Shown: in pieces, positions 978 through 48,775 of the stretch
Layout: each line of letters begins with the position of its first letter
How positions within the stretch are numbered: position 1 is the first letter of the stretch
Position numbers and translations under genes: made by a program
Source: Armatimonadota bacterium
GTDB taxonomy: Bacteria > Armatimonadota > UBA5829 > DTJY01
NCBI GenBank assembly: GCA_023511795.1
Contig: JAIMAU010000009.1
Span: 1-64,000, forward strand
DNA length: 64,000 nt
Direction: 5' to 3'
The notes under the pieces: model-generated
Databases searched by the model: none
Seen by the model: only the letters and a program-made list of their open reading frames with translations
Told to the model about the DNA's origin: nothing

Positions 978-1709
978 ATGAATACCAAGCTAAGACAAAT
1001 TGCTGAAAGTATCGAAAAGGACCCTTGCGAATCTACAGGGCATATATACCATCCGTTGCCCTTTCCAGAATTCGAACGACTTAAGACGTCGAGTTCGAGG
1101 GAATCTGCCTTTCGTAAATGGCGCTTGATAAGTCATTCCCTTAAGTCGTTTTCTTCAATAGCTGGATTGCGCGTGCTGGATGTTGGTGCTAATGCTGGGT
1201 TCTATTCGTTTAATTTTGCCAAACTGGGCGCACTTGTGGATGCTTATGAGCCACACAAGCATTATGCCGAATTTGGCGCTCAGATTGCGGAAGCTACTAA
1301 CCTTCCAGTGCGATGGCATAACAAAAGATTGGAACAAGCAGATTTGGCGGGCAAAAACTACGACATTGCCTTGATGCTGAGCGTGTTTCAATGGGTTTCT
1401 AGAGGTAACGAGAACCTAGAAGAAGCAAAAGCATTGCTCAATGCTGTGGCGCACTCTGCAAGAGTTCTGTTTTTTGAATTAGGGTGCAACAGCGGCGAAA
1501 GTGCCATTTATGTTGCTGAGCGCCCGATTGCTTGGATTTGGCGTTTACTCAAGGAAAACACTTCGCCGAAAGATGTTGCCTATCTTGGCTCAACTGCTCC
1601 GTGGGGCAGAGGACGTCGTTTTCTTTTTGCCTGCGCAGAAGATAGAGTAAGTCTAACTCTTTGGCAGCGGTTTATCACCTTCGCCTTGCAAAGGTCCTGG
1701 ATATGTTAG
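978..1709 (+). CDS. Class I SAM-dependent methyltransferase
   Basis: The 243-residue protein has the glycine-rich SAM-binding motif VLDVGANAGFYS at about residue 67, followed by an acidic residue at the end of strand 2 (VDAYEP) and a motif-IV-like segment (DIALMLSVFQW). These are hallmarks of Rossmann-fold class I methyltransferases. The acceptor cannot be read from sequence. The position at the head of a glycan locus makes methylation of a sugar or lipid-linked glycan reasonable. Its stop overlaps the probable start of the flippase gene (ATG at 1703, stop TAG at 1707-1709), so the two are probably translationally coupled. Length is within the normal range and no key motif is missing. Confidence 0.8.
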   Translation: MNTKLRQIAESIEKDPCESTGHIYHPLPFPEFERLKTSSSRESAFRKWRLISHSLKSFSSIAGLRVLDVGANAGFYSFNFAKLGALVDAYEPHKHYAEFGAQIAEATNLPVRWHNKRLEQADLAGKNYDIALMLSVFQWVSRGNENLEEAKALLNAVAHSARVLFFELGCNSGESAIYVAERPIAWIWRLLKENTSPKDVAYLGSTAPWGRGRRFLFACAEDRVSLTLWQRFITFALQRSWIC

Positions 1710-3241
1710 ATGAGAAACAGCAGACCGCTGATGAGTTAAAGAATAAGACAATTCGTGGAATAGGTTGGAGTGTGGCAGGCCAGGCAGGCAATCAGGTTGT
1801 GGTGGCCTTAACAATGATTGTCCTTGCGCGTTTGCTTTCGCCACGAGAATTCGGCTTGCTGGCGATGGTTGTAGTAATCACAAGCTTTGCCAATATCTTC
1901 GCAGAAATGGGATTAGGCTCTGCGTTGGTACAAAAACAAGACATTCGCCAAGAACATTTGTCGTCTGTATTTTGGCTGAACGTGGTCGCAGGTTTGGTTT
2001 TGACTTCGGCATTTATTATTTGTTCGCCGCTTATTTCAAGCTTCTACGGTGAGCAAATCCTGAGGCCGCTCACTCTTCTAATATCAGCCAATTTTGCAAT
2101 TGGTTCGCTGAGCATCGTCCAGAGGACCAACTTTGTGAAAACCCTTGATTTCCGCAGGCTTTTTGTTGCTGATATAACAGCGGTTGTGGTTTCTAGCGTT
2201 GTGGCTATAGCGATGGCTTGTGCAGGTGCAGGTGTATGGAGCCTTGCCACACAATCGGTTGTTCTTACATCGGTGACTGCCGCCATGCTTTGGTTGATGA
2301 GTGCTTGGCGGCCTAGTTTCATTCTTAGATGGAATGCAATAAGAGATCTTTTAGGGTTTAGTGCCAGTTTGTTAGGAACTGATGTGCTCAACTACTGGGT
2401 ACGAAACATAGATTATTTGCTGATTGGGCGGTTTATTGGTAGCAACCCCTTGGGCATCTATAAGAATGCTTACCAGGTTATGCTTTTTCCTTTAACAAAC
2501 GTGTCGCGTGTTATCTCAAGGGTGATGTTCCCGGCGCTTTCTATCATTCAAAATGAAAAGGCACGCGTTAGAAACATATACCTTCAAGTAACCCGAACGA
2601 TAGCTTTGATAACCTTTCCAATGATGGCAGGCCTCTTTGTTGCCGTGGAGCCACTGGTTTTGGCAGTTTTCGGCACAAAATGGTCAGGAATGATACCTCT
2701 ACTTAGGGTATTCTCCATAGTAGGACTAATGCAGTCCATTGGCACTCTCAATGGAAACCTGTATCTTTCTCAAGGAAGGGCTGACCTGCAATTCAAGGTC
2801 AGCCTTTTTGTGAAAGCGACTGCAGTGCTTGGTATCGTAATCGGTTTGCGTTGGGGAATATTGGGGGTGGCAATCGGATATGCTGTTGCGTCGCTTTTAA
2901 ATTCTTATCCAGCATTTTATTTCGCAGGAAAATTGGTAAACCTAAGCTATTGGCAACTTTGGCGCAATCTGTCAGGGGTACTGGGTTGCTCTATTGCTAT
3001 GGCTGCTGTTGTGTTTGGAGCGGGTGTCATATTGCCAACCACGCTGCCTAACTGGGCAAAGCTTGCATGCCAAATAATAATTGGGGCATTAATTTATTTG
3101 TTATTGATTCATTTTTTAGGCGTCAAGGCATATGTGGAGACACGGGAAATCTTGTTAGATCAATATCGCCGCTTCCGAGAAGGGCGCAAACAGCTTGGTG
3201 ATGATGATGCTGCAGATGTTGTTGGTGCCAGAGCGTTGTGA
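1703..3241 (+). CDS. Polysaccharide flippase, Wzx/MOP superfamily
   Basis: This 512-residue polytopic membrane protein has about 12-14 hydrophobic segments. It opens with NKTIRGIGWSVAGQAGNQVV and continues with LARLLSPREFGLLAM, typical of the WzxC/TuaB branch of the MOP superfamily (Polysacc_synt_3). Such proteins flip undecaprenyl-linked oligosaccharide repeat units across the inner membrane. I chose ATG 1703, which overlaps the stop of the methyltransferase gene, over the upstream in-frame TTG at 1661, which would overlap that gene by 49 bases. The downstream glycosyltransferases and O-antigen ligase homologue fit a Wzx/Wzy-dependent pathway. The substrate is unknown. Confidence 0.9.
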   Translation: MLDEKQQTADELKNKTIRGIGWSVAGQAGNQVVVALTMIVLARLLSPREFGLLAMVVVITSFANIFAEMGLGSALVQKQDIRQEHLSSVFWLNVVAGLVLTSAFIICSPLISSFYGEQILRPLTLLISANFAIGSLSIVQRTNFVKTLDFRRLFVADITAVVVSSVVAIAMACAGAGVWSLATQSVVLTSVTAAMLWLMSAWRPSFILRWNAIRDLLGFSASLLGTDVLNYWVRNIDYLLIGRFIGSNPLGIYKNAYQVMLFPLTNVSRVISRVMFPALSIIQNEKARVRNIYLQVTRTIALITFPMMAGLFVAVEPLVLAVFGTKWSGMIPLLRVFSIVGLMQSIGTLNGNLYLSQGRADLQFKVSLFVKATAVLGIVIGLRWGILGVAIGYAVASLLNSYPAFYFAGKLVNLSYWQLWRNLSGVLGCSIAMAAVVFGAGVILPTTLPNWAKLACQIIIGALIYLLLIHFLGVKAYVETREILLDQYRRFREGRKQLGDDDAADVVGARAL

Positions 3242-5778: not shown

Positions 5779-6794
5779 TGCAGAGAGTATACATCATCGT
5801 CCTCAATTGGAATGGTTGGCAAGACACAATCGAATGTCTAGAAAGTGTTTTTAGAAGCGACTATCCCGATTTTCAAGTGGTAGTGTGCGATAACGGCTCT
5901 GAAGATGCTTCGGTTGAGCGAATAAGAGAATGGGCTGAGGGACGGTACCAAGTCGAGATAGCATCAGAAAACCCACTTCGTTATCTTGTTTTTCCGCCGG
6001 TTCCTAAGCCTGTTGAATTTCAAGAATTTGACCGAGCCAAAGCGGAGGCAGGTGGGGAAGTGGGGGATGCAGAGCCTCGGCTTGTTATCATAAGGATTGA
6101 TGAAAACCTAGGCTTTGCAGGCGGAAACAATGTTGGAATACGATATGCGCTTGCCAAGGGAGACTGCGGATATGTATGGCTGTTGAATAACGACACAGTG
6201 GTGACTCAAAATGCCTTAAGTGGCATGGTGCGTCGGATGATGGAATCGCCGGTTGCTGGCATGTGTGGTGCAAAAATACTCTACTACGATGAGCCGGAAA
6301 AAGTACAAGTCCTCGGCGGCGTGTCATATAATCGGTGGTTCGGAACAACCAAACAAATCGGCTGGCTGAAATCGGCAGATGTGCCTTATGATTTATTAGA
6401 AGTGGAACGGAGCATGTCATATGTAACTGGGGCGTGTATGCTCGTATCTCGCCAATTTCTTGAGACGGTTGGTTTAATGAGCGAGGACTACTTTTTCTAT
6501 TTTGAAGAGCTCGATTGGGTAATGCGCGCACGGGGTGCATTCGACTTGGTCTACGCCCCAGACAGCGTCGTCTATCATAAAGAAGGCAGGGCTGTCGGGG
6601 GAAGTAGCCGTGCGGCTAATTGTAAAAGCTATATTTCGGACTATTATTATCTGCTGAATAAGATAAAAATCACGCGTAAGTTCTTCCCTTATGCCCTACC
6701 TACTGTGTATCTGAGTATTCTCGGCACTCTTGTAAATCGAATTAGAAGACGCCAATGGGACAGGGTGGATATGGTCTTTAAGATTTGGCGATGA
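5778..6794 (+). CDS. Glycosyltransferase family 2 (WbbL/rhamnosyl-type)
   Basis: The 338-residue GT-A enzyme begins VYIIVLNWNGWQDTIECLES and has VVCDNGSEDAS, then LGFAGGNNVGIRYAL and WLLNNDTVV (a DxD-like NDT), and further on SEDYFFYFEELDWVMRARG. This order is characteristic of WbbL/RfbN-type GT2 transferases, many of which transfer rhamnose. The family makes an assignment to a dTDP-sugar donor plausible, which would fit the RfbB gene further along. An insertion of about 50 residues lies between the first strand block (about residue 45) and the GGNN block (about 115). The gene is coupled at both ends, by TAATG upstream and by ATGA at 6791-6794 downstream. Confidence 0.85.
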   Translation: MQRVYIIVLNWNGWQDTIECLESVFRSDYPDFQVVVCDNGSEDASVERIREWAEGRYQVEIASENPLRYLVFPPVPKPVEFQEFDRAKAEAGGEVGDAEPRLVIIRIDENLGFAGGNNVGIRYALAKGDCGYVWLLNNDTVVTQNALSGMVRRMMESPVAGMCGAKILYYDEPEKVQVLGGVSYNRWFGTTKQIGWLKSADVPYDLLEVERSMSYVTGACMLVSRQFLETVGLMSEDYFFYFEELDWVMRARGAFDLVYAPDSVVYHKEGRAVGGSSRAANCKSYISDYYYLLNKIKITRKFFPYALPTVYLSILGTLVNRIRRRQWDRVDMVFKIWR

Positions 6795-8029
6795 GTATGA
6801 CAGATTTATTGCTGATAATCTGGATTGCAACGATTGGTGCAGACAGGGTTGATTTCTTGGGTGGCACAGGCGATTTTATCCTTACGCCGTTCCTCGTCTT
6901 GTCGCCATTGGTCCTTTCATTTGGGTTTATGCACCTTATGCTTAAGAAGAACGCCCCTGCGGTTTTGGTGCCGAGAAATACCCGCCAAGTTATCTTTCTC
7001 TTCACACTGTTACTTATTCTTGTGCTGTTGTCAGTGGTTTTCGGGCGAGATATGCGCCTGGGTTTGAAGAGATTTGCTTTGCTAGCTATTCAGGTTTATG
7101 GGACTTTGCTTGGAGCAATTGTTCTAGCTAATTTAAAAAACCCAGGGCGTATTCTTCTTTTAGGCGCATACTGCAGTATTGTCCTCAGCCTTCTGATGAA
7201 TATAGGCCAGCTTCTATATTGGCTTCCTGCCTCATTAAGTGATCAAATCAGAAGCATGAGTATCATTGATTTTAGTCCACGGCTTGTTGGACCGTTTGGC
7301 CCTCGGCTAGCTGGTGTATCGATTGACATGAACCGAGGGGCGACGCTTCTAATGGTTTATGCGTTCTTTGTACTGAAGTTTGGCGGTCGTTCGCCGTTGC
7401 ACGATGTATTTTTCTATTTGGCGTTGGTTATGATATTGGCGACTCTATCTAGGTCTGGCATTGCTGGGTTTATACTCATGGGATTGGTTATGCTGGTTCA
7501 AAATGGCAGGATTAGGCTCTCATCGATAGCAAAGGCGATGGCGGTTTTCGGCGGATTAGGTATATTATTACTTTTTGTTGCCCGATGCACGGCGCTAGGA
7601 ACCTATCTTAAAATAGGTAAATTATTAGCGGAACGTCTATCTTTTGGCGAGTCCGAATCAGGTGGCATGCACTTAATGTTAGTTGAAAGGGGCTTGGAGA
7701 TTGCTTCGTCAAGCGTGCAAAACTTTTTCCTTGGCACAGGTTTTGGTAGCTCTAGATTACTGCTTAATGATATTTTTGTAGACAAGTATGCTAATTTCCA
7801 CTCAATATATATTTCGTTTCTTGTCGAAACCGGTGTTCTTTCCCTTTTTGTGCTATTGTTGCTCTGCTGCCTACCCCTCGCAAGGTCTAGGAATTATATG
7901 CCGATGATGCTTGGGTTAATGGTGGTCAATCTTTTCTACCAGCTTTCCCTGGAGCCGATTTTTTGGTTGAGTATAGTCCTTCTGTGGACAAATATAGGTT
8001 TTACAAGAGGTGAAGTGAGGGATACTTAA
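6791..8029 (+). CDS. O-antigen ligase / Wzy-type polymerase family
   Basis: This 412-residue membrane protein has around 11 hydrophobic segments and a long extracytoplasmic loop in the C-terminal half. That loop contains GMHLMLVERGLEIASSS and FLGTGFGSSR, followed by FHSIYISFLVETGVLSLF. The pattern of glycine-rich loop, then HS/HN-x-Y-L-x-E-x-G, matches the Wzy_C (O-antigen ligase) superfamily, whose members ligate or polymerise lipid-linked glycans in the periplasm. Ligase and polymerase cannot be told apart here. ATG 6791 overlaps the stop of the GT2 gene (ATGA). With the flippase it completes the minimal Wzx/Wzy-type pathway in this locus. Confidence 0.85.
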   Translation: MSMTDLLLIIWIATIGADRVDFLGGTGDFILTPFLVLSPLVLSFGFMHLMLKKNAPAVLVPRNTRQVIFLFTLLLILVLLSVVFGRDMRLGLKRFALLAIQVYGTLLGAIVLANLKNPGRILLLGAYCSIVLSLLMNIGQLLYWLPASLSDQIRSMSIIDFSPRLVGPFGPRLAGVSIDMNRGATLLMVYAFFVLKFGGRSPLHDVFFYLALVMILATLSRSGIAGFILMGLVMLVQNGRIRLSSIAKAMAVFGGLGILLLFVARCTALGTYLKIGKLLAERLSFGESESGGMHLMLVERGLEIASSSVQNFFLGTGFGSSRLLLNDIFVDKYANFHSIYISFLVETGVLSLFVLLLLCCLPLARSRNYMPMMLGLMVVNLFYQLSLEPIFWLSIVLLWTNIGFTRGEVRDT

Positions 8030-12195: not shown

Positions 12196-13173
12196 ATGAT
12201 CATTACGCAGACTCCGTTACGAATAAGTTTTGCTGGAGGGGGTACAGACTTCGCTGATTTCTACCGCTTGAATGGTGGTTGTGTAATCTCATCGGCGGTC
12301 GATAAGTACATCTATGTGATTATCAAAGAACGCTTCGATGAAAAAATCCGTATTGGCTATTCTCGAACAGAAATGGTTGATTCGATTGACGAGATTGAGC
12401 ACGAACTTGTTCGTGAATGCCTCCGAAAGACAGGTATAACGCATGGCGTTGAAATTTCAACCATGGCTGATATTCCCTCAGAGGGGTCTGGCTTGGGTTC
12501 TTCGAGTAGCGTGACCGTTGGTCTTCTTAACGCAATGTATGCTTACAAAGGCGAGATAGTACCTGCCGAAGTTCTTGCTAAAGAGGCATGTGAAATTGAG
12601 ATTGACATTCTGGGCAAGCCGATAGGGAAACAGGATCAATATATCGCAGCATTTGGCAACCTCCGCTTTATCTCGTTCTTGCCGTCCGAAGAAGTAAAAG
12701 TTGAGTCCATCAATCTTGATCCCGAAAAGAAACGCAGATTGAGCGAGAGCCTAATGCTCTTTTTTACAGGCATGACCCGCAGTTCGAGCGAAATACTTTC
12801 CGAGCAGAAAGCGAATATTGCCGACAGAGTTGACATACTAAAAAAGATGAAGCACCAAGCTGAGGAAATCCGAGAAAGTCTGCTCAATGGGCACATAGAC
12901 CGGCTAGGTGAGATTATGCACCAAGGCTGGCTGTATAAAAAACAGCTTGCCGGGAAGATTAGCAATAGTGAGATTGACAACATGTATGAGCGGGCGCTTG
13001 ATGCCGGCGCACTTGGCGGGAAAATCGCAGGTGCAGGTGGCGGCGGCTTCTTATTACTCTACTGTCCACCCGAGCGCCAAAACAAAGTTCGCGAGGCTCT
13101 CTCTAATCTCAGAGAGCTAAACTTTAACCTTGAGCGAGACGGAACCAAGGTAATCTTTAATGTGAGGCGGTAA
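12196..13173 (+). CDS. hddA: D-glycero-alpha-D-manno-heptose-7-phosphate kinase
   Basis: This 325-residue GHMP kinase begins [19 protein letters not shown], the signature of HddA-type sugar kinases. It has the ATP-binding loop [19 protein letters not shown] at about 95, [17 protein letters not shown], and the C-terminal motif-3 [16 protein letters not shown]. HddA phosphorylates D-glycero-D-manno-heptose 7-phosphate at C1 in the GDP-heptose pathway. gmhA follows after 3 bases and gmhB overlaps gmhA, which supports this assignment over other GHMP kinases. Start ATG is preceded by GAGGGTTAAGG. A second, shorter GHMP kinase lies downstream at 15913. Confidence 0.9.
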
Positions 13174-13176
13174 CCG

Positions 13177-13740
13177 ATGGATAAAGTAAAAAACTACCTA
13201 AACGATGTTGCTCAGCTGCTGATAGAGGCGCCAACGGAGGACATTCGTAAAATTGCATCTCTCGTAATGGATGCTTATCTCTCCGGCAAGCAGGTTTTCA
13301 TCATGGGCAATGGCGGGAGCGCTGCCACTGCTTCACATCTAGCATGCGATCTACAAAAGGGAATTGGTTGTCTCAACCCAGACAAAAAGTTTCGCGTAAT
13401 GGCGCTTACGGACAACGTTCCGATAATGACCGCTTGGGCAAACGATACGGATTATTCAAATATTTTCGCAGAGCAATTGGCAACTTGGGTGGAACCAGGC
13501 GACCTAGTAATTGGCATTAGCGGCAGTGGAAACTCGCCCAATATTATTAAGGGAATTGAAGTTGCAAAGGAAAAAGGTGCTGTCACTGCTGGCTTAAGTG
13601 GTTTCAAAGGTGGCAAACTTGCCCAGGTGGCTGACCATAATGTCGTTGTACTTAGCGATAACATGCAGCATATCGAAGATGTTCACATGGTCATCTCCCA
13701 TTTAATATTTCGCTACCTACTGGAGGAACTGTGTCATTGA
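13177..13740 (+). CDS. gmhA: Sedoheptulose-7-phosphate isomerase
   Basis: The 187-residue SIS-domain protein has QVFIMGNGGSAATASHLACD at about 35, the phosphosugar-binding GNGGSA of GmhA, and LVIGISGSGNSPNIIKGIEV at about 109. Its C-terminus, QHIEDVHMVISHLIF, carries the conserved E and H residues for catalysis. GmhA isomerises sedoheptulose 7-phosphate to D-glycero-D-manno-heptose 7-phosphate. It sits between the HddA-like kinase and gmhB, and its last 10 bases overlap the gmhB start. Size is normal for the family (about 190). Confidence 0.94.
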   Translation: MDKVKNYLNDVAQLLIEAPTEDIRKIASLVMDAYLSGKQVFIMGNGGSAATASHLACDLQKGIGCLNPDKKFRVMALTDNVPIMTAWANDTDYSNIFAEQLATWVEPGDLVIGISGSGNSPNIIKGIEVAKEKGAVTAGLSGFKGGKLAQVADHNVVVLSDNMQHIEDVHMVISHLIFRYLLEELCH

Positions 13741-14294
13741 AAGTGGTATTCCTGGATAGAGATGGCGTAATCAATAAGAATCGCGATGACTATGTAAAAA
13801 CAGTTGATGAGTTCGAGTTTCTCCCGGGAGCTCTGGAGGGTTTGGCAAGACTTAAAGAAGCCGGATACAAGGCAGTCATTGTTTCAAACCAGGCTGGGGT
13901 TGGACGTGGTTTGTTTTCTTTGGATGAGCTTGAGCAAATAACAAAAGCTATGCTTGGTGAAATCAGACTCACAGGCGGAGAAATAGCCGGTGTTTACTAT
14001 TGCATACATCGCAAAGACGAAGGTTGCGGATGTCGGAAGCCCGAACCTGGTCTCTTTCTAAAGGCGCGTGAAGAGCTTGGTCTTGATTCAGAGGGCGGTT
14101 TTTTAATAGGTGACACTGAAAGCGACATTTGTGCAGGGTATCGGGCAGGATGTACTACGATTTTGGTTTTGACTGGCAAATCTTCGGCTGATGACGTTGA
14201 GCATTGGCAGTATAAGCCCGATTATATTGCTGACAACCTTAATTCTGCCGTCGAGTGGATTATTAATAATCAAGTTGGCGTTACGTCTAACTAA
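13731..14294 (+). CDS. gmhB: D-glycero-D-manno-heptose 1,7-bisphosphate phosphatase
   Basis: This is a 187-residue HAD-IIIA phosphatase. The nucleophile motif FLDRDGVINKNRDDYV is at the N-terminus, then VIVSNQAGVGRGLFS, the zinc loop CIHRKDEGCGCRKPEPGLF (Cys and His ligands) and LIGDTESDICAGYRAG. All match GmhB, which removes the 7-phosphate to give heptose 1-phosphate, ready for nucleotidyl transfer. The start is GTG 13731, with GGAGG at 13722-13726 inside the end of gmhA. The nucleotidyltransferase HddC that would finish GDP-heptose is not present in the window. Confidence 0.93.
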   Translation: MSLKVVFLDRDGVINKNRDDYVKTVDEFEFLPGALEGLARLKEAGYKAVIVSNQAGVGRGLFSLDELEQITKAMLGEIRLTGGEIAGVYYCIHRKDEGCGCRKPEPGLFLKAREELGLDSEGGFLIGDTESDICAGYRAGCTTILVLTGKSSADDVEHWQYKPDYIADNLNSAVEWIINNQVGVTSN

Positions 14295-14373
14295 CGGTTA
14301 ATGGTTTTCTTTCCACGACTTAATTATTTGCTTATCAATAAGTAACCTATTATTCCAGGAAGGGGTTTCTAGG

Positions 14374-15888
14374 TTGAGCAAAGCAAGGGGTATTTGGGTT
14401 TTCCTCACTTTAGCGCTAGTTTTAACCACCGTCGGGACGTCTTTTGCGGATACTAGGAGCGTCCCTTCTGCCGACCGGTTGCCACCTGAACATTGGGCGT
14501 ATGATGCGATGCTCAACCTTGCTGCGGACAACTTAATCAGCGGTCTGCCTGCACGACTCTTTGCGGGCGACAGGCTTTTCAATCGCCTGGAAATGGCAGA
14601 AATTGTCGCATCGGCAGTAGATAATGCGTTGGGACGCAAATTGAGCGCTAGCCAGGTGGCTTTGATCACCAAGCTGATTGAGGAATTCAGACCTGAGATT
14701 GCTTTTCAAAATGCATTGGTGCTTGAAAAGTGGTCAAACCGCGAGGAGTCAGGTTCTCCCAATTCAATGGTTTTGACAGGTTATGTGCGCGGTATTGCAG
14801 AGGACGATTCCGGCGATGCGGACAGCCTTCTCCTTATTCCATACAGGGTTTCCGCGTTGGTAAACTTTTCTGAAGACATGCTTGGCGCTTGCATGTTTTC
14901 AGAACGAGAGGATAAGTTCTTCTTGCAAAGGCGAAATGACCCGCAGCCTGGAAAAATAATGATAAAGGGCTATGGTGAAGATTTTACATGGGAGATAGGA
15001 AGAGACTACTTCTGGTGGGGGCCTTGCTATGCTAGTTCGTTGATACTCTCGGACAACAGTGCTGGGTTTTGGAATGCCGCAGGTTCAAAGGAGTTTTCTT
15101 TTGGCCCGTTCTTTGGTCGAGTAAAAATCAGCCAGTTTGCCAGCGCTTTTGAAGACGAGGGGCAGATGCTTTATCTTTTCGGCAGGCGTTATGAGAGGAC
15201 GCTGTCCCATGGATGGAATATAGGTATCAGCGAGACAGCCAAAACAGGCAAAATGCCAAATCCCCTTATCCTTGTGCTCCCATTTTACCTATATCAGCAT
15301 TTGTTTCATGAAGTAGATGAGGAATTTAATACGCTTTATTCCATCGATTTTCTTTACGCGGCCAGACCTTCATATCAAATATACGGTGAATTATTGATTG
15401 ATGACATAACATCCCCACGGATTTTTGGCGGTGGGTTCGAGCGACCCCGGAAAACGGGTTGGACGCTGGGTGTGTATTTGCCTAGAATGCTTTCAAAAAA
15501 TAAGCTCTCGACGTTCAGGGCAGAATATGTCTATATAGACCGACTTACCTATGGTGCGACGCGTGAAGATTATCCATTGCTTGCATATATTCACAACACT
15601 GAGGTAATAGGACATGCGATTGGCCCGAATTCGAAAGCCCTATACCTTCGGTGGGAGCGAAGCTTAGCCGAGAAGCTGAGCGTAATATGTGAGTATGTGG
15701 ATAGACATGAAGTGGAAGCACAAAATCCGCGTCGGAACAATGAAAGAGCCGTGTCATTCCTATTTACTTACGATATTTCGCCTGACAAGTCAATTGGAGT
15801 AAGATTAGCTCCTTATACTACAAGGATGCCCGATGGTAGCCGAAGTTCCGGGACTATCTACCAAATACGGGCAACTGCTGCATTTTAA
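14374..15888 (+). CDS. SLH-domain outer-membrane barrel, Wzi capsule-assembly family
   Basis: This 504-residue secreted protein has a signal peptide (about residues 1-25, ending GTSFA) and an SLH domain at about 38-90 (EHWAYDAMLNLAADNLISG, then GDRLFNRLEMAEIVASAV). A long beta-rich region follows that matches the capsule-assembly Wzi family: GYGEDFTWEIGRDYFWWGP and SLILSDNSAGFWN. The end, with alternating hydrophobic residues and a terminal Phe, is typical of outer-membrane barrels. Wzi-family proteins act in surface polysaccharide attachment. The SLH domain likely binds pyruvylated or aminated cell-wall polymer and tethers the barrel, as OmpM does. The start is TTG 14374 with AGGAAGGGG eight bases before. 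It sits between the two heptokinase genes. Confidence 0.82.
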   Translation: MSKARGIWVFLTLALVLTTVGTSFADTRSVPSADRLPPEHWAYDAMLNLAADNLISGLPARLFAGDRLFNRLEMAEIVASAVDNALGRKLSASQVALITKLIEEFRPEIAFQNALVLEKWSNREESGSPNSMVLTGYVRGIAEDDSGDADSLLLIPYRVSALVNFSEDMLGACMFSEREDKFFLQRRNDPQPGKIMIKGYGEDFTWEIGRDYFWWGPCYASSLILSDNSAGFWNAAGSKEFSFGPFFGRVKISQFASAFEDEGQMLYLFGRRYERTLSHGWNIGISETAKTGKMPNPLILVLPFYLYQHLFHEVDEEFNTLYSIDFLYAARPSYQIYGELLIDDITSPRIFGGGFERPRKTGWTLGVYLPRMLSKNKLSTFRAEYVYIDRLTYGATREDYPLLAYIHNTEVIGHAIGPNSKALYLRWERSLAEKLSVICEYVDRHEVEAQNPRRNNERAVSFLFTYDISPDKSIGVRLAPYTTRMPDGSRSSGTIYQIRATAAF

Positions 15889-15912
15889 TCGAAGAAAAGG
15901 GGAAAACGAAGG

Positions 15913-16815
15913 ATGATAATAACGAGTAGAGCACCTGTACGCATAGACTTTGCTGGCGGATGGACCGACGTAGACATTTTTGCAAAAGGCGCTGGCGGCG
16001 CCGTGCTCAACGCCACTATAGATAAATATGTCACTGGCCGCCTTGAGATTTTCGAAAGTACACCCACAATGGAAAAAGAAGCCCATGAGGGAATTACGGT
16101 GACATATAAGTCTGATTTACCTTCTGGTTCGGGCTTGGGTACGTCTGCATCTCTCAATGTTGTGTGGCTGAGCCTTATAAAATCCCAAATCACGAGCATC
16201 GAAGACAAGAAGATGATCGCGAACCTTGCCTATGAGCTCGAGCGCATATTAGGAATCCTTGGCGGCAAGCAGGACCAGTATGCTAGCGCTATTGGTGGCA
16301 TTAACTTTATGACCTTCAACGATAGTGTAGAAGTTGAGAGGTTGGAGCTTGACCCTAATGTAATTTCCGAAATGGAGAGCAGGCTTCTCCTTTGCTATAC
16401 TGGCAAGCCAAGGCTGTCGGGGAACATCCACGAAAATGTTTGGGGAGCCTACCGCAGAGGTGTGCCGGAGACAGTGAACGCTTTGTACAACCTTCGCAAC
16501 GTTGCAATTAGAATGAAGACCGTATTGTTAAACGGCGATCTAAATGAGTTTGCCGAGCTCCTTAATCAAAACTGGAAACACCAGAAGCAGCTTGATGCTT
16601 CCATTACTAATGAACAAATCGAAGAGCTTTTTGACGAAGCATTCAAGGTTGGTGCGATTGGCGGCAAAGCATGCGGAGCAGGCGGCGGCGGGTGTGTGCT
16701 TTTCTTTACTGAGCCTGGAAAGTATGATAAGGTTGCCAGCGTAGTTGAAAAATTGGGTAGCCGTGTCATCCCATTTAAGTTTGAGTTTGAGGGCCTTCAA
16801 GTAGGCGAAGTGTGA
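15913..16815 (+). CDS. GHMP family sugar kinase, HddA-like paralogue
   Basis: The 300-residue kinase begins MIITSRAPVRIDFAGGWTDV. It has LPSGSGLGTSASLNVVWLSL at about 72, LGGKQDQYASAIGGINFM and the motif-3 loop GGKACGAGGGGCVLFF, so all three GHMP motifs are complete. It is clearly related to the HddA at 12196 but shorter, with a reduced segment ahead of the ATP loop, and FAGGWTDV is also seen in fucokinase-like GHMP enzymes. It could phosphorylate the same heptose or another sugar such as fucose. It lies 24 bases after the Wzi-like gene in the same run and is the last member of the polysaccharide locus. Confidence 0.85.
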   Translation: MIITSRAPVRIDFAGGWTDVDIFAKGAGGAVLNATIDKYVTGRLEIFESTPTMEKEAHEGITVTYKSDLPSGSGLGTSASLNVVWLSLIKSQITSIEDKKMIANLAYELERILGILGGKQDQYASAIGGINFMTFNDSVEVERLELDPNVISEMESRLLLCYTGKPRLSGNIHENVWGAYRRGVPETVNALYNLRNVAIRMKTVLLNGDLNEFAELLNQNWKHQKQLDASITNEQIEELFDEAFKVGAIGGKACGAGGGGCVLFFTEPGKYDKVASVVEKLGSRVIPFKFEFEGLQVGEV

Positions 16816-19453: not shown

Positions 19454-20425
19454 CTAATGGTTCGCTTGGAACATATCATAAATTAGTTTTTTTGTTGCTT
19501 CCGGATCGGCTTTGACAAAAATTCCGCCTGTATTAAGCGCAGGGAGCGTCTCCATTCTTATATTGGCTTTGGGTAGAGATTTTGCAAATGAAAGTAGGCA
19601 CATCATCTGCCGAAATGAGAGGTTAGTCTCGGTGTTCTTGCGTATCATATCAAGGATATGGGGCAGTTTTAGCATTACACAAGGGTTTGACAGTTTTGCT
19701 TTGGCAGCAAGCAAAAGCTCTTGCTGTCTTCCTATTCTTACGAAATCGCTCTCGGCATCTCCCGATTTTGACTGCCTATATCGTACGAAACCCATAGCTT
19801 GATTGCCGTTGAGAACCTGTCTGCCGGGTTTGAGGTGTATGTGCAGATTACCCCAGTTATCGTCGTAGTCAAGCTGCTTGTCGACTGTGACCTCCAGTCC
19901 GCCAATTGCATCCACAGCTTTCTCGAATGTATTAAAGTCTATCAGCACATAGTTTTCGGGATAGACGCCAATAAACTCCTCTAATGTTTGACAGGTTAAG
20001 CTTGGCCCGCCGAGCGCATTTGCGTAGCTTATTCTTCGTTTGCCCCGATAGCCTGGAATGTGTACTAGGGTATCGCGGGGTATTGAAAGTATGTTAAGCT
20101 TATGGTTGCGGAAATCAGCATGCACCAACAACATGGCGTCTGTCCGACCACGTGTGTTAACGATGCGTCCATGTCTATCCCTGTCTACATCACGGCCAAG
20201 CAAGAGGATGTTGACTTCATTCTTGCCAGGAAAGGCTTCCGCCGGTGAATAATTATGTGAAAGTGCAACTTGGATGGCATCGTGCACCGTTTGAGAGGAG
20301 GAATAATAGTAAAAAAGGGTTCCAGTTATTGATAAAGCTAAGAAAAGGAAGATAAATACTATAATTTTTTTGCGAACACCGCGTGAGGATTTTCGTATCC
20401 GGTTGGTTTTAGGTTGAGTTTGCAT
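19454..20425 (-). CDS. LytR-CpsA-Psr (LCP) family glycopolymer ligase
   Basis: This 323-residue protein has a basic cytoplasmic N-terminus, one membrane anchor at about 18-42, and an extracytoplasmic LCP domain. Visible LCP motifs are NILLLGRDVDRDRHGRIVNT, GRTDAMLLVHAD, LSIPRDTLVHIPGYRG, YVLIDFNTFEKAVDAIGGLE and MGFVRYRQ, with the Arg and Asp residues that bind the polyprenyl pyrophosphate. LCP enzymes transfer glycans from lipid carriers to peptidoglycan or other acceptors. One could attach the polysaccharide made by the upstream locus or a secondary cell-wall polymer that the SLH domain binds; this is inference. It is divergent from the metallophosphoesterase gene. Confidence 0.93.
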   Translation of the reverse strand: MQTQPKTNRIRKSSRGVRKKIIVFIFLFLALSITGTLFYYYSSSQTVHDAIQVALSHNYSPAEAFPGKNEVNILLLGRDVDRDRHGRIVNTRGRTDAMLLVHADFRNHKLNILSIPRDTLVHIPGYRGKRRISYANALGGPSLTCQTLEEFIGVYPENYVLIDFNTFEKAVDAIGGLEVTVDKQLDYDDNWGNLHIHLKPGRQVLNGNQAMGFVRYRQSKSGDAESDFVRIGRQQELLLAAKAKLSNPCVMLKLPHILDMIRKNTETNLSFRQMMCLLSFAKSLPKANIRMETLPALNTGGIFVKADPEATKKLIYDMFQANH

Positions 20426-43919: not shown

Positions 43920-44035
43920 TCATGTAAGTTCGCTAGCGTACCACAGAGTCGTTTTTTTGTTTCTGCATCCGAAACATCCCATGGCCACCACGATTCCGTT
44001 TGGTACGAGCGGAAAATTTCATGGGAGGGATGCGC

Positions 44036-47000
44036 ATGAAAGACTTGTGTCTTTCGCCATGGCGAGTAGTGCTATCAGCACTACTTGGGTGCCTCTGCAT
44101 TGCCAGTGGTGCCCTAGCCGGACCGGTAGCCTATATTGATGGTGGTGGAGAAATTTTCGTAACCAACCATCCCAAAGCAGTGGACGCGGTCTCGGCACTT
44201 TCTCTACTATCCTCACCACCTCCGAATACGCCATTTACTCCAGCATTGACCTCGGCGGTGCCTCCTGGCACTAAGCTCCTTGATTTCAGGATTGAGGGGG
44301 ATAAAGCGGTTGTCAATTTCTCCCGAGGAATTTTGGTGCACGAACTTACGGAGGAAAGGCTTGCAGGCATCTTCGATCAGGTGAAAGCTACCCTTTGGAA
44401 TTATGGCTTTCAGGGAGAAGTCGCCGTGAATGTCGAGGGTACTCCGCTAGCAGAGTATGTTGCACCTACACCTGTTATAGAGCCTCGCAAGGAGGCTCGC
44501 GTATTAGGATTGGGAGGCCGCAGCATCACCCTATCGCCTGGGCACGGTTGGTTTTGGAATGGCAGTGGCTGGTATACTCAGCGGCCTGTATACTGCTCGC
44601 CACTAAACGAAGAAGATTTCCACAATCTTGAAATCTGCCAGTACATCCAGACCTATTTGGCACAGGATGGCATGACTGTCAAGATGGTGCGCTGTACAGA
44701 CAAGAACTATGGCACTTGCTCGTACAGTGGCAAGCCTTGGTGGCAGATGGCAGCTTGCTACTGGCTTCAGCACGTTGGCTATCCATGTAGCGTATATGGA
44801 AGCTATAGTGGGTGTTCACTTGGAGACGGCGCTACTGAGATTAACGATGACATTCGCTCCAGGCCGCTTGCTTCGGATTACGACGGCACAGACATTTATA
44901 TCTCGCTACATACAAATGGATACCAAGGCGACTGCTATGGTCCTTCTTGTCCTACGGGCACAATCACCTATTACGACTGCAGCACAGAGCATGCAAACTG
45001 GTGCACGGTGAGCCAGAATCTCGCCAATGCGGTACACGACAATTTGATTGATACTATTAGGAACAAGATTCCAATCAGCGACTGGACGAACCGCGGCAAA
45101 GCGAACTCTAACGGTGCGTATGGTGAGATTCGGATTCCGGACAGGGCGGCGATTTTGATTGAGCTAGCTTTTCATGACACATGCGACAGGGATGCTGTTT
45201 ATCTGAGGGACAATTTCTTCAGGTCTGCATGTGCGTGGGGCATTTACAAGGGTGTTTGTGCGTATTTTGGTCAGACCCCAACTTGGGATTTCTACTCTGA
45301 CCAGCTAGTTAGCCACACCATTCCAAGTACAATGAGTCCAGGCGAAACAAGGTCGGTTAGCATTACCTTCCGGAATAGGGGTGTTTTGTGGACTGAGGCG
45401 AAAGCCATCAGGCTGGGTGCAGTAGGCGATTCCGACCCATTCACGACTCAGACTCGGCACACTATATCTGGCGAGGTTGGGCCTAATCAGACATACACAT
45501 GGACATTCAACCTGACTGCTCCAACAACGCCAGGCACCTACACCACCGACTGGCGCATGGTCCGCGATGGCGTTACCTGGTTCGGTGCCACATGCTCGCA
45601 GACCATTAATGTTGTTGCTAGTGATAGCCAAGCGCCTTCAGTGCCTACAAACCTGTCAGCAACGGTAAAATCGCCAAGCCGGATAGATTTAGCGTGGAAT
45701 GCTTCGACAGATAACATAGGTGTTACGGGTTACAAGATTTATCGCAATGGCGGGCAAATCGGAACCTCGGCTTCGACGAGCTATGTAGATTCATCCTGTT
45801 CAGCGAACACAAGCTACACATACACGGTAGCGGCTTATGATGCAGCTGGGAACACGTCTGGACAGAGTAGTCCGGCCTTTGCTACCACTCCGCCAAGCGA
45901 GATAGTTATTGATAACCCATCATGCGAGCTTTCGGGCGTGTGGAGTACGGGAACTTCAGCTACTGACAAGTATGGTGCAGATTATTATTTTGCAAGTAGC
46001 GCTGTGAGTGAGGGCAAGACTGCGACCTGGCGGCCAAACTTTGCTTTTGGTGGAAGCTATGATGTTTACGCCTGGTGGCCCGCTGGAACGAACCGAGCGC
46101 CGAATGCGCCATACACAGTTGCTTGGAGTGGCGGCTCGCAGGTTGTTCAAGTGAACCAGCAGAGCAGCGGTGGACAATGGAACTCCTTAGTCTCCAGCAA
46201 GACATTTGCCATGGGTACTGGTGGCTACGTAAGGCTAAGCAATGGCACTGGCCAGACGGGTTATGTTGTCATGGCGGATGCTGTCCGCTGGGTAACGCTT
46301 TCGGTCGACACTGTTGCGCCAAGCGTCCCAACAAACGTTGCGGCGAATCCGGTGTCTTGCACACAGATAAACTTAACGTGGAATGCTTCGACGGATAACG
46401 TCGCCATTGGTGGTTATAAGATTTACCGGAATGGCGTGCAGGTTGGGACAAGTGCCGCAACTAGTTATTCCGACACCGATTGTTCACCGGGCACGACTTA
46501 TACCTACCGTGTAAGTGCGTACGACACAGCGGGCAATGAGTCAGCACAAAGTAGCCAAGTTGCTGCAACCACACCTGGTGATACGACTGCGCCTAGCGTG
46601 CCAACCAACCTGAGTGCCAATGCAGTTTCCGGTACACAGGTAGATTTGACTTGGACTGCATCAACAGACAACATTGGTGTAGCGGGGTATAAAATCTATA
46701 GAAATGGCGGCCAAATTGGCACTAGTTCGAGCACTTCATATTCGGACACTACCTGCAGTCCTGGCCAGAGTTATACCTACGAGGTGTCGGCATATGATGC
46801 TGCTAGCAATGAATCTGCTAAAAGCACACCCGCTTCAGTAACTACTCCTGGCGTTGACACGATTGCGCCGAGTGTACCGACGAACTTGAGTGCGACGGCT
46901 GTTTCAGGGACGCAGGTAGACTTAAGCTGGACGGCGTCTACGGACAATGTAGGTGTAGTTGGCTACAAGGTATACAGGAATGGGGTACAGGTAGGCACTA

Positions 47001-48775
47001 GTACAGGCACGAGTTACTCTGACACAGGGTGTGTGCCGGCTACCAGTTACACCTACGAGGTATCTGCGTATGATGCGGCTTCGAACGAGTCAGCGAAGAG
47101 CGCGCCTGCGACTGTAGTCACGCCTGACACAATTGCGCCGAGTGTGCCGACGAATCTCCAGGCGAGCGCTGTTTCTCAGACGCAAATCAACCTAAGCTGG
47201 ACGGCGTCTACGGACAATGTCGGCATAATAGGTTACAAGATTTATCGCAATGGTGCGCAGATTGCTACTTCAACTACAACTAGCTACTCTGATACGACTT
47301 GCGAGTCTTACACAACCTATACTTACAGGGTAAGTGCATATGATGGTTCGAACAATGAGTCAGGTCTAAGCAACCAGGCAACGGCAACCACATTGCCTTA
47401 CACGGACATAATCCTAGACAACAACGTGGCTGTATATGTTGGCACTTGGTTTACAGGTACTTCAGCCACTGATAAGTATGGGTCAGACTATCGGTATGGC
47501 ACGACGGACACAGTAGAGAGCCGAACAGCCACGTGGACGCCGGACATTGACATCTCCGGTTACTATACGGTTTATGCCTGGTGGCCGCAGGGCAGCAACA
47601 GGTCTTCGGCTGCTCCTTACACTATCTACTGGGACGGCGGATCGCAAACAGTTGCAGTTAACCAAAAGACTAACGGCGGCATGTGGAACACCCTTGTTAC
47701 GAACAAGAGGTTCCTGGCAGGAACAGGGCAGTCCGTCAAATTAAGCAACAACACTGGCGAGGCGTCGCTGAACGTCATGGCAGACGCAGTGCGATTTTTG
47801 CTAGTTTCAGACGACCTGACGCCGCCGAGCGTGCCGAGCAATGTGTCAGCCGTTGGGGTCTCTGCTTCGCAGGTCAACGTGAGTTGGACGGCTTCAACAG
47901 ATAACGTTGGAGTTAGCGGATACAAGGTGTACCGCAATGGGGTTCAGGTGGCGACAACTGCTAGCACTTCCTACTCTGATACAGGGCTTAGTGAGCTAAC
48001 TACCTACACATATGAAGTGTCGGCTTATGATGCTATGGGGAACGAGTCGGCAAAGAGCGCCCAAGCCACTGGTACTACCCTCGACGGTACTCCGCCAAGT
48101 GTTCCGAGCGGTGTAACTGCGACAGCTGTTGGTCCTCAGCGAATTAATCTTACTTGGACGGCTTCGACAGACAACGTGGGAGTAGCAGGCTACAAGGTCT
48201 ACAGGAATGGCAGCTACATAGGCTATACAGCGAGCACCAGTTATTCTGACGGAGGACTTTCACCGAGCACATCATATACCTACACTATATCGGCATATGA
48301 CGCTGCTAGCAATGAGTCTTCTCAGAGTAGTGGGGCATCGGCAACGACGCCTGGGTATGCTAATGTCATTGTAGACAACCCTGCATGCGTGTTCACAGGA
48401 GTCTGGACGACAGCTACCGCATCCACCGATAAGTATGGTTCAGACTATGCCTATGCGAGCACTGCGGTGAGCGAGGGCAAGACGGCAAAGTGGATTCCAA
48501 GCATTCCATACAGCGGCAACTACGATACTTATATTTGGTATCCGCAGGGCAGTAATAGAGCTACCAACGCGCCATTTACCCTTTATTGGGATGGCGGTTC
48601 GCAGACTGTCGCCTGGAATCAGCAGACAAACGGTGGTGCGTGGAGACTGCTGCTCGGGAATAAGCACTTCGTTGCGGGAACGAGCTGCTACTTGAAGCTC
48701 GGCAATGGCACTGGTGCAACTGGTTCTATCGTTGTCGCTGATGGCGCGAGGTTCCAACAAATAAGCGGTGACTAA
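44036..48775 (+). CDS. Modular N-acetylmuramoyl-L-alanine amidase with GerMN, FN3 and golvesin-like domains
   Basis: The 1579-residue exported protein has a signal peptide (VLSALLGCLCIASGALA) and a GerMN-like domain at about 30-140. The Amidase_3 catalytic domain at about 160-400 has zinc ligands SPGHG (about 169), NEED (about 191) and SLHTNG (about 290), and the catalytic Glu in IELAFHD (about 375). An NBR1-Ig-like domain follows at about 415-530. Then come seven FN3 repeats and three golvesin-C-like domains in the order FN3, golvesin, FN3 x4, golvesin, FN3 x2, golvesin. It should cleave the peptide from glycan strands. ATG 44036 has GGGAGGG six bases upstream (earlier TTG 44000 rejected). 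Residue numbers are approximate. Confidence 0.9.
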   Translation: MKDLCLSPWRVVLSALLGCLCIASGALAGPVAYIDGGGEIFVTNHPKAVDAVSALSLLSSPPPNTPFTPALTSAVPPGTKLLDFRIEGDKAVVNFSRGILVHELTEERLAGIFDQVKATLWNYGFQGEVAVNVEGTPLAEYVAPTPVIEPRKEARVLGLGGRSITLSPGHGWFWNGSGWYTQRPVYCSPLNEEDFHNLEICQYIQTYLAQDGMTVKMVRCTDKNYGTCSYSGKPWWQMAACYWLQHVGYPCSVYGSYSGCSLGDGATEINDDIRSRPLASDYDGTDIYISLHTNGYQGDCYGPSCPTGTITYYDCSTEHANWCTVSQNLANAVHDNLIDTIRNKIPISDWTNRGKANSNGAYGEIRIPDRAAILIELAFHDTCDRDAVYLRDNFFRSACAWGIYKGVCAYFGQTPTWDFYSDQLVSHTIPSTMSPGETRSVSITFRNRGVLWTEAKAIRLGAVGDSDPFTTQTRHTISGEVGPNQTYTWTFNLTAPTTPGTYTTDWRMVRDGVTWFGATCSQTINVVASDSQAPSVPTNLSATVKSPSRIDLAWNASTDNIGVTGYKIYRNGGQIGTSASTSYVDSSCSANTSYTYTVAAYDAAGNTSGQSSPAFATTPPSEIVIDNPSCELSGVWSTGTSATDKYGADYYFASSAVSEGKTATWRPNFAFGGSYDVYAWWPAGTNRAPNAPYTVAWSGGSQVVQVNQQSSGGQWNSLVSSKTFAMGTGGYVRLSNGTGQTGYVVMADAVRWVTLSVDTVAPSVPTNVAANPVSCTQINLTWNASTDNVAIGGYKIYRNGVQVGTSAATSYSDTDCSPGTTYTYRVSAYDTAGNESAQSSQVAATTPGDTTAPSVPTNLSANAVSGTQVDLTWTASTDNIGVAGYKIYRNGGQIGTSSSTSYSDTTCSPGQSYTYEVSAYDAASNESAKSTPASVTTPGVDTIAPSVPTNLSATAVSGTQVDLSWTASTDNVGVVGYKVYRNGVQVGTSTGTSYSDTGCVPATSYTYEVSAYDAASNESAKSAPATVVTPDTIAPSVPTNLQASAVSQTQINLSWTASTDNVGIIGYKIYRNGAQIATSTTTSYSDTTCESYTTYTYRVSAYDGSNNESGLSNQATATTLPYTDIILDNNVAVYVGTWFTGTSATDKYGSDYRYGTTDTVESRTATWTPDIDISGYYTVYAWWPQGSNRSSAAPYTIYWDGGSQTVAVNQKTNGGMWNTLVTNKRFLAGTGQSVKLSNNTGEASLNVMADAVRFLLVSDDLTPPSVPSNVSAVGVSASQVNVSWTASTDNVGVSGYKVYRNGVQVATTASTSYSDTGLSELTTYTYEVSAYDAMGNESAKSAQATGTTLDGTPPSVPSGVTATAVGPQRINLTWTASTDNVGVAGYKVYRNGSYIGYTASTSYSDGGLSPSTSYTYTISAYDAASNESSQSSGASATTPGYANVIVDNPACVFTGVWTTATASTDKYGSDYAYASTAVSEGKTAKWIPSIPYSGNYDTYIWYPQGSNRATNAPFTLYWDGGSQTVAWNQQTNGGAWRLLLGNKHFVAGTSCYLKLGNGTGATGSIVVADGARFQQISGD
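46860..47400 (+). repeat. Near-identical 270-bp FN3 DNA repeats
   Basis: Adjacent FN3 modules inside the amidase share long identical DNA. For example, 28 bases at 46923-46950 recur at 47193-47220, an exact 270-bp (90-codon) offset, and the segment beginning GCGCCGAGTGT is repeated at the same offset. This indicates recent duplication or gene conversion inside the gene. Confidence 0.7.

Follow-up and report, generated by a model that had tools for sequence, protein, structure and literature searches.

How an outer-membrane barrel of the Wzi type came to carry an SLH domain, and what that domain does there, is the question raised by one gene in a window of 64,000 nucleotides (the whole stretch of DNA analysed here, contig JAIMAU010000009.1 of an Armatimonadota bacterium). 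The ORF at 14374-15888 encodes an outer-membrane protein of the Wzi family with a well-preserved SLH module at its periplasmic end. Its parts and its neighbours in the window are as follows.

14374..15888, + strand: Wzi-family outer-membrane protein with N-terminal SLH/OmpM-stalk module, 504 aa (ORF, Pfam, AlphaFold2, 2YNK)
14350..14373, + strand: ribosome-binding-site-like stretch 5' of the TTG start (read from the sequence)
14374..14451, + strand: signal peptide region, residues 1-26 (K/R, hydrophobic stretch and SFADT in the sequence)
14479..14598, + strand: SLH domain, residues ~36-75, with W41, F63, G65, R71 and E73 (PF00395; phmmer to 8BZ2)
14599..14736, + strand: OmpM-stalk-like helices, residues 76-121, with an L..LI.EF..E motif (OmpM1 alignment, models)
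14767..15885, + strand: 18-strand Wzi beta-barrel, residues 132-504 (PF14052, model strands, profile match)
1661..3241, + strand: Wzx-type flippase (PF13440, 314.8 bits; NF007773 above cut-off)
6785..8029, + strand: Wzy_C/O-antigen ligase-type protein, likely polymerase (PF04932, 38.0 bits)
12196..16815, + strand: heptose-type operon with HddA-like kinase, GmhA-like protein, GmhB, SLH-Wzi and a second HddA-like kinase (profile matches)

The frame is open from its TTG start, a few bases 5' of which lies the Shine-Dalgarno-like stretch AGGAAGGGG. The signal peptide claimed by the earlier note can be read from the sequence, and the AlphaFold2 model renders this region as a helix (residues 2-19) at low confidence. 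The same note had placed the gene inside a polysaccharide locus, and this setting was confirmed: the flippase, glycosyltransferases, the Wzy_C protein, an RmlC-like protein and RmlB all lie 5' of it. Within the operon, the SLH-Wzi gene sits between GmhB (NF006506, 193.6 bits, cut-off 178) and the second HddA-like kinase, and the GmhA and HddA matches were under their cut-offs. Two HddA-like kinases thus occur in the single operon at 12196-16815. Neither Wza nor Wzc was seen among the scanned window proteins; the window starts at contig base 1, so that export genes may be cut off. Close to the polysaccharide locus, the - strand encodes a LytR-CpsA-Psr family protein (19454-20425, 142.5 bits); it may be a wall-polymer ligase, here in a genome that specifies an outer membrane. 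Farther along, at 44000-48775, lies the gene for a protein of 1591 aa with Amidase_3, Germane (PF10646), Golvesin_C and seven fn3 stretches.

The N-terminal module is an OmpM-type SLH. By hmmscan, PF00395 scored 19.6 bits at residues 39-75, just below the curated Pfam cut-off of 20.8 bits, and by six-frame search it scored 23.7 bits, above that cut-off; only one copy per chain was found by hmmscan. The SLH call is nevertheless real, as homology was clear from phmmer, from an HMM built from OmpM only and from the domain model. With phmmer against the PDB, residues 36-109 matched the SLH structure of Veillonella OmpM1 (8BZ2) at 2e-8, over both the SLH and the next helix. The OmpM-only HMM matched the ORF at 5.9e-16, and the best of 1360 shuffled proteins reached an E of 2. 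The N-terminal domain modelled alone (pLDDT 88.5) aligned with 8BZ2, the compact form of the OmpM stalk (PMC10628300), at Z 11.4 over 83 of 83 residues (rmsd 2.4, 32% identity), the next row having a Z of 4.5. In addition, a 17-sequence profile (A1) matched OmpM1 (8BYS) at 5.8e-23, and this match reached its first strands.

The barrel is equally well identified. PF14052 scored 59.3 bits at residues 199-471 by hmmscan (curated cut-off 30.1 bits), and the signature GR.Y.WWGP...S.ILSDN is present. A full-length AlphaFold2 model built from 9 sequences (pLDDT 81.2, pTM 0.83) showed helices at 41-51, 60-64, 71-85, 92-104 and 106-121, followed by a barrel of 18 strands if 151-154 and 157-166 are taken as one. 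In VIA, the model matched E. coli Wzi (2YNK) at Z 21.1 (rmsd 4.1, 356 residues aligned), with residues 36-504 of the model aligned to 28-474 of the chain; later rows had a Z of 18.0 or less, and most bacterial barrels among them begin at about residues 115-132 of the model. Helices 92-104 and 106-121 run straight into the barrel with no coiled-coil stalk, although a monomer prediction cannot form a trimeric extended stalk and the compact fold is thus partly a product of the method. The earlier note had called a single SLH domain and a Wzi-like barrel and had quoted motifs from each; the motifs are where it placed them, and both calls hold after the Wzi and SLH HMM searches and the structure prediction of the barrel that it had proposed, with the SLH Pfam score straddling its cut-off.

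The architecture is shared by a congener (G224) and by relatives in the family (G223 and G225), and the source genome has 1 Wzi match and 2 SLH matches in total. Within the class, W41, G65 and R71 were kept in all eight aligned members. The SLH is the most conserved part of the protein there: mean pairwise identity was 59% in the SLH, 24% in the linking helices and 40% in the barrel. Across Armatimonadota, 55 of 291 genomes had a PF14052 match, and in many of these Wzi proteins the signal peptide is followed by the consensus VP.GDW.YDA...LA..GL..G...F.GDR.FTR.EMA, as was also the case for all aligned N-termini of the class. In some Wzi proteins of the phylum (L006, L013, L015 and L054), the module is preceded at the N-terminus by an additional stretch, roughly 100 aa long or longer (e.g., SGYVLEVSGSSARLSLSAEDDVQPGDEFSALQ). 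A contig search for relatives with the single protein found none, while an alignment-based search did recover relatives; a search of plasmids gave nothing beyond one SLH protein of the OmpM-like kind and a match attributed to chance.

The same module was found in Wzi of other phyla. The N-terminus of a Desulfobacteraceae Wzi (L047) reads NVPLGHWSYDALDKLRGFGLIQSDIYDTRPYTRLETARLV...LLDRFKDEFKMEL, and a KSB1 Wzi (L038) begins in much the same way; in the phyla around these two, Wzi was above cut-off in 12 of 99 and 57 of 59 genomes, respectively. The OmpM-only HMM matched 17 of the 38 Wzi frames from both phyla at E < 0.01 (best 1.2e-9), and among the other frames, several carry a version of the module that has diverged further. 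A profile of 24 of these N-termini aligned with OmpM by hhalign at E 3e-18 (reversed 0.37), with a score of 94 against a maximum of 16.4 in 200 column shuffles; the 24 were chosen by eye from the 38 frames, so that the 38-frame hmmsearch is the fairer test. When searched against the PDB, the Wzi-only profile of other-phyla N-termini (A3) matched 8BZ2 (9.5e-9), Sap SLH (0.0016) and SlpA (0.039). Judged from these alignments, the N-terminal module of Wzi in other phyla is SLH-related. OmpM and most Wzi of Armatimonadota have an SLH motif of 38 residues; in the Desulfobacteraceae- and KSB1-centred phyla, almost every Wzi has one of 34. In the Selenomonas-centred phylum, one Wzi (L123) has a modified short form of the module. 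Three other PF14052 proteins of that phylum (L125, L126 and L128) have no SLH-like N-terminus, their signal peptide seeming to run almost directly into the barrel. PF14052 had no match in 121 genomes of the Synergistaceae-centred phylum, where control profiles were equally silent.

Considering these results, we propose that the protein would be a Wzi-type outer-membrane lectin, which may hold the polysaccharide made by the locus on the cell surface. Its SLH/OmpM-stalk module would belong to the Wzi family widely and not solely to this lineage, and would fold compactly beneath the barrel, in the manner of the helical plug of E. coli Wzi. The Armatimonadota class retains a full-length SLH loop together with the wall-polymer-binding residues, and the loop is four residues shorter in the Wzi proteins of the other two phyla covered in depth; the intact SLH would probably be ancestral and have worn down elsewhere. 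We give this explanation as a whole a probability of about 0.7.

The strongest competing account is that of a wall-tethered capsule barrel, with the SLH bound to a pyruvylated polymer of the wall and surface polysaccharide held by the barrel, which would couple the capsule to the wall. Such tethering can be combined with a family-wide origin of the module. W41, G65 and R71, conserved in the class as described above, correspond to residues that contact sugar or pyruvate (roles from PMC10628300), and the SLH is better conserved than the barrel. The source genome also encodes CsaB (310 bits; its relatives are similar) and, as its second SLH protein, an OmpM-like porin with a collagen-like linker, a coiled coil and a barrel-like remainder, besides one OmpA-domain protein. 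Against this, in the known SLH binders three SLHs come together, within a single chain or through trimer formation (PMC10628300), and this protein has a single SLH; E. coli Wzi is a monomer (PMC3791409), and the coiled-coil stalk of the OmpM-like proteins of the same phylum is missing here. For OmpM itself, the isolated stalk failed to bind sacculi and the full-length protein bound (PMC10628300). The comparison between phyla bears on the point as well. No CsaB was above cut-off in the tested genomes of the Desulfobacteraceae- and KSB1-centred phyla, several of which had no SLH match at all and some of which had one. The module occurs in Wzi of genomes without a detected SLH protein or CsaB, so that finding it is not in itself proof of tethering; nor is the R of the TR.E motif, which CsaB-less genomes also keep, a mark of wall binding in particular. 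The place of the domain, with a short linker, no coiled coil and an alignment with the 2YNK plug, is as compatible with a plug as with a tether, if not more so. Since the SLH ligand residues are kept in the class, tethering stays possible, but for the domain in this protein we consider wall contact the less likely outcome by a clear distance. As to the other SLH proteins of the phylum, its OmpM-like proteins (L002, L102-L121) consist of an SLH, long linkers (some collagen-like, GPPGPAG) and then a coiled coil that carries an L..L..EF..EL motif, and one genome (G199) has 26 SLH matches, many of them in tandem, compared with two in the source genome.

An origin by fusion within the lineage is unlikely. 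Under it, an Armatimonadota ancestor would have placed an OmpM SLH ahead of the Wzi barrel in an event unconnected with the N-terminal helices found in Wzi elsewhere, and it draws on the profile scores, by which the Armatimonadota module is nearer to OmpM (130) than to the N-termini of other-phyla Wzi (80). Those N-termini, however, match the OmpM SLH unaided, in the same order and place, so that two independent gains would be required. In a tree of the module, which covers a 46-residue domain and few columns, the Armatimonadota Wzi SLHs form one group, with the exception of L014, whose stretch had been extracted incorrectly, and the OmpM SLHs from these genomes fall outside that group. On this 46-residue tree, a recent acquisition of the domain from the resident OmpM was rejected. 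The join of SLH and Wzi is thus not a new fusion, as the same module opens Wzi of other phyla. The statement of the earlier note that one protein joins both tasks holds for the presence of the two domains but not for a fusion specific to the lineage.

That the protein is an OmpM-type porin or general outer-membrane pore with an incidental Wzi match is very improbable: the N-terminus is OmpM-like and OmpM barrels appear in the structural list at Z 16.1, but 2YNK stands 3 Z above the next structural row, and the Armatimonadota barrel profile matched OmpM barrels with a probability of 0.2 (E 0.3) against an E of 1.8e-42 to the Wzi barrels of the two other phyla. The barrel profile of those phyla gave a probability of 0.4 with OmpM and likewise indicated no relation. 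Kinship between Wzi and OmpM barrels was therefore unsupported by barrel profiles, despite the extension of the A1 match into the strands of 8BYS.

Returning to the proposed plug-like Wzi module, a further step concerns E. coli Wzi, the N-terminal part of which is a helical plug needed for function or stability; its authors likened this helical bundle to DnaJ-like domains (PMC3791409). In the PDB search with profile A3, residues 17-69 of 2YNK were weakly matched (E 0.46). A full-length Wzi profile (A6) matched the 2YNK barrel at 4e-30 and the OmpM SLH at 1e-8, and residues 17-69 of 2YNK were colinear with the SLH-like module, with 2.4 bits for the segment. With the N-terminal domain model as query, 2YNK was missing from the rows returned by Foldseek and VIA, an absence that is still compatible with a relation. 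The sequence relation of the E. coli plug to the module is thus suggestive, and because the plug match alone is not significant, this step rests on the colinearity and on the full-length structural alignment. We tentatively raise the wider idea, which we regard as rather doubtful, that a worn-down SLH/OmpM stalk may make up the plug on the periplasmic side of Wzi, that of E. coli included, that capsule lectins may descend from wall-tethered outer-membrane barrels, and that Armatimonadota may retain an intermediate, a single protein by which surface polysaccharide is tied to the wall as well as to the outer membrane.

In a literature search that left most subscription papers outside its reach, nothing was found linking Wzi to an SLH domain, S-layer homology or OmpM; the sole publication found there to name both Wzi and SLH gives them as separate families. 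A link to the OmpM SLH would give the unexplained Wzi plug an origin and a testable former role. It would also connect the attachment of capsules with the outer-membrane tethers, in which Terrabacteria and other diderms differ, and would single out the Armatimonadota class as an extant group that still has the wall-binding residues.

Several known systems can be compared with this protein. E. coli Wzi (PF14052, 2YNK, PMC3791409) shares the 18-strand barrel, a signature of the GR..WGPG..GSL type, the setting in a polysaccharide locus and periplasmic N-terminal helices in a similar place. The N-terminal part here is a recognisable SLH with a full loop, whereas its 2YNK counterpart has diverged so far that its match by sequence is not significant. 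OmpM1 of Veillonella parvula (8BYS, 8BZ2, PMC10628300) likewise has an N-terminal SLH and an L..L..EF..EL helix, and the compact crystal structure of its stalk (8BZ2) is matched by the fold predicted here over 83 residues. Its barrel is a 16-strand trimeric porin, in contrast to the 18-strand Wzi barrel, with no detectable sequence relation between them, and the OmpM-type coiled-coil stalk between SLH and barrel is absent from the Wzi protein. SlpA of Deinococcus radiodurans (7ZGX, PMC9388160) also has one N-terminal SLH on an outer-membrane barrel protein but differs in its trimeric coiled coil of about 28 nm and its 30-strand barrel. Finally, the cyanobacterial SLH-OprB porins (TC 1.B.23), compared here by their description in PMC4827864, place an SLH before an outer-membrane barrel in the same way, with a barrel of a different family.
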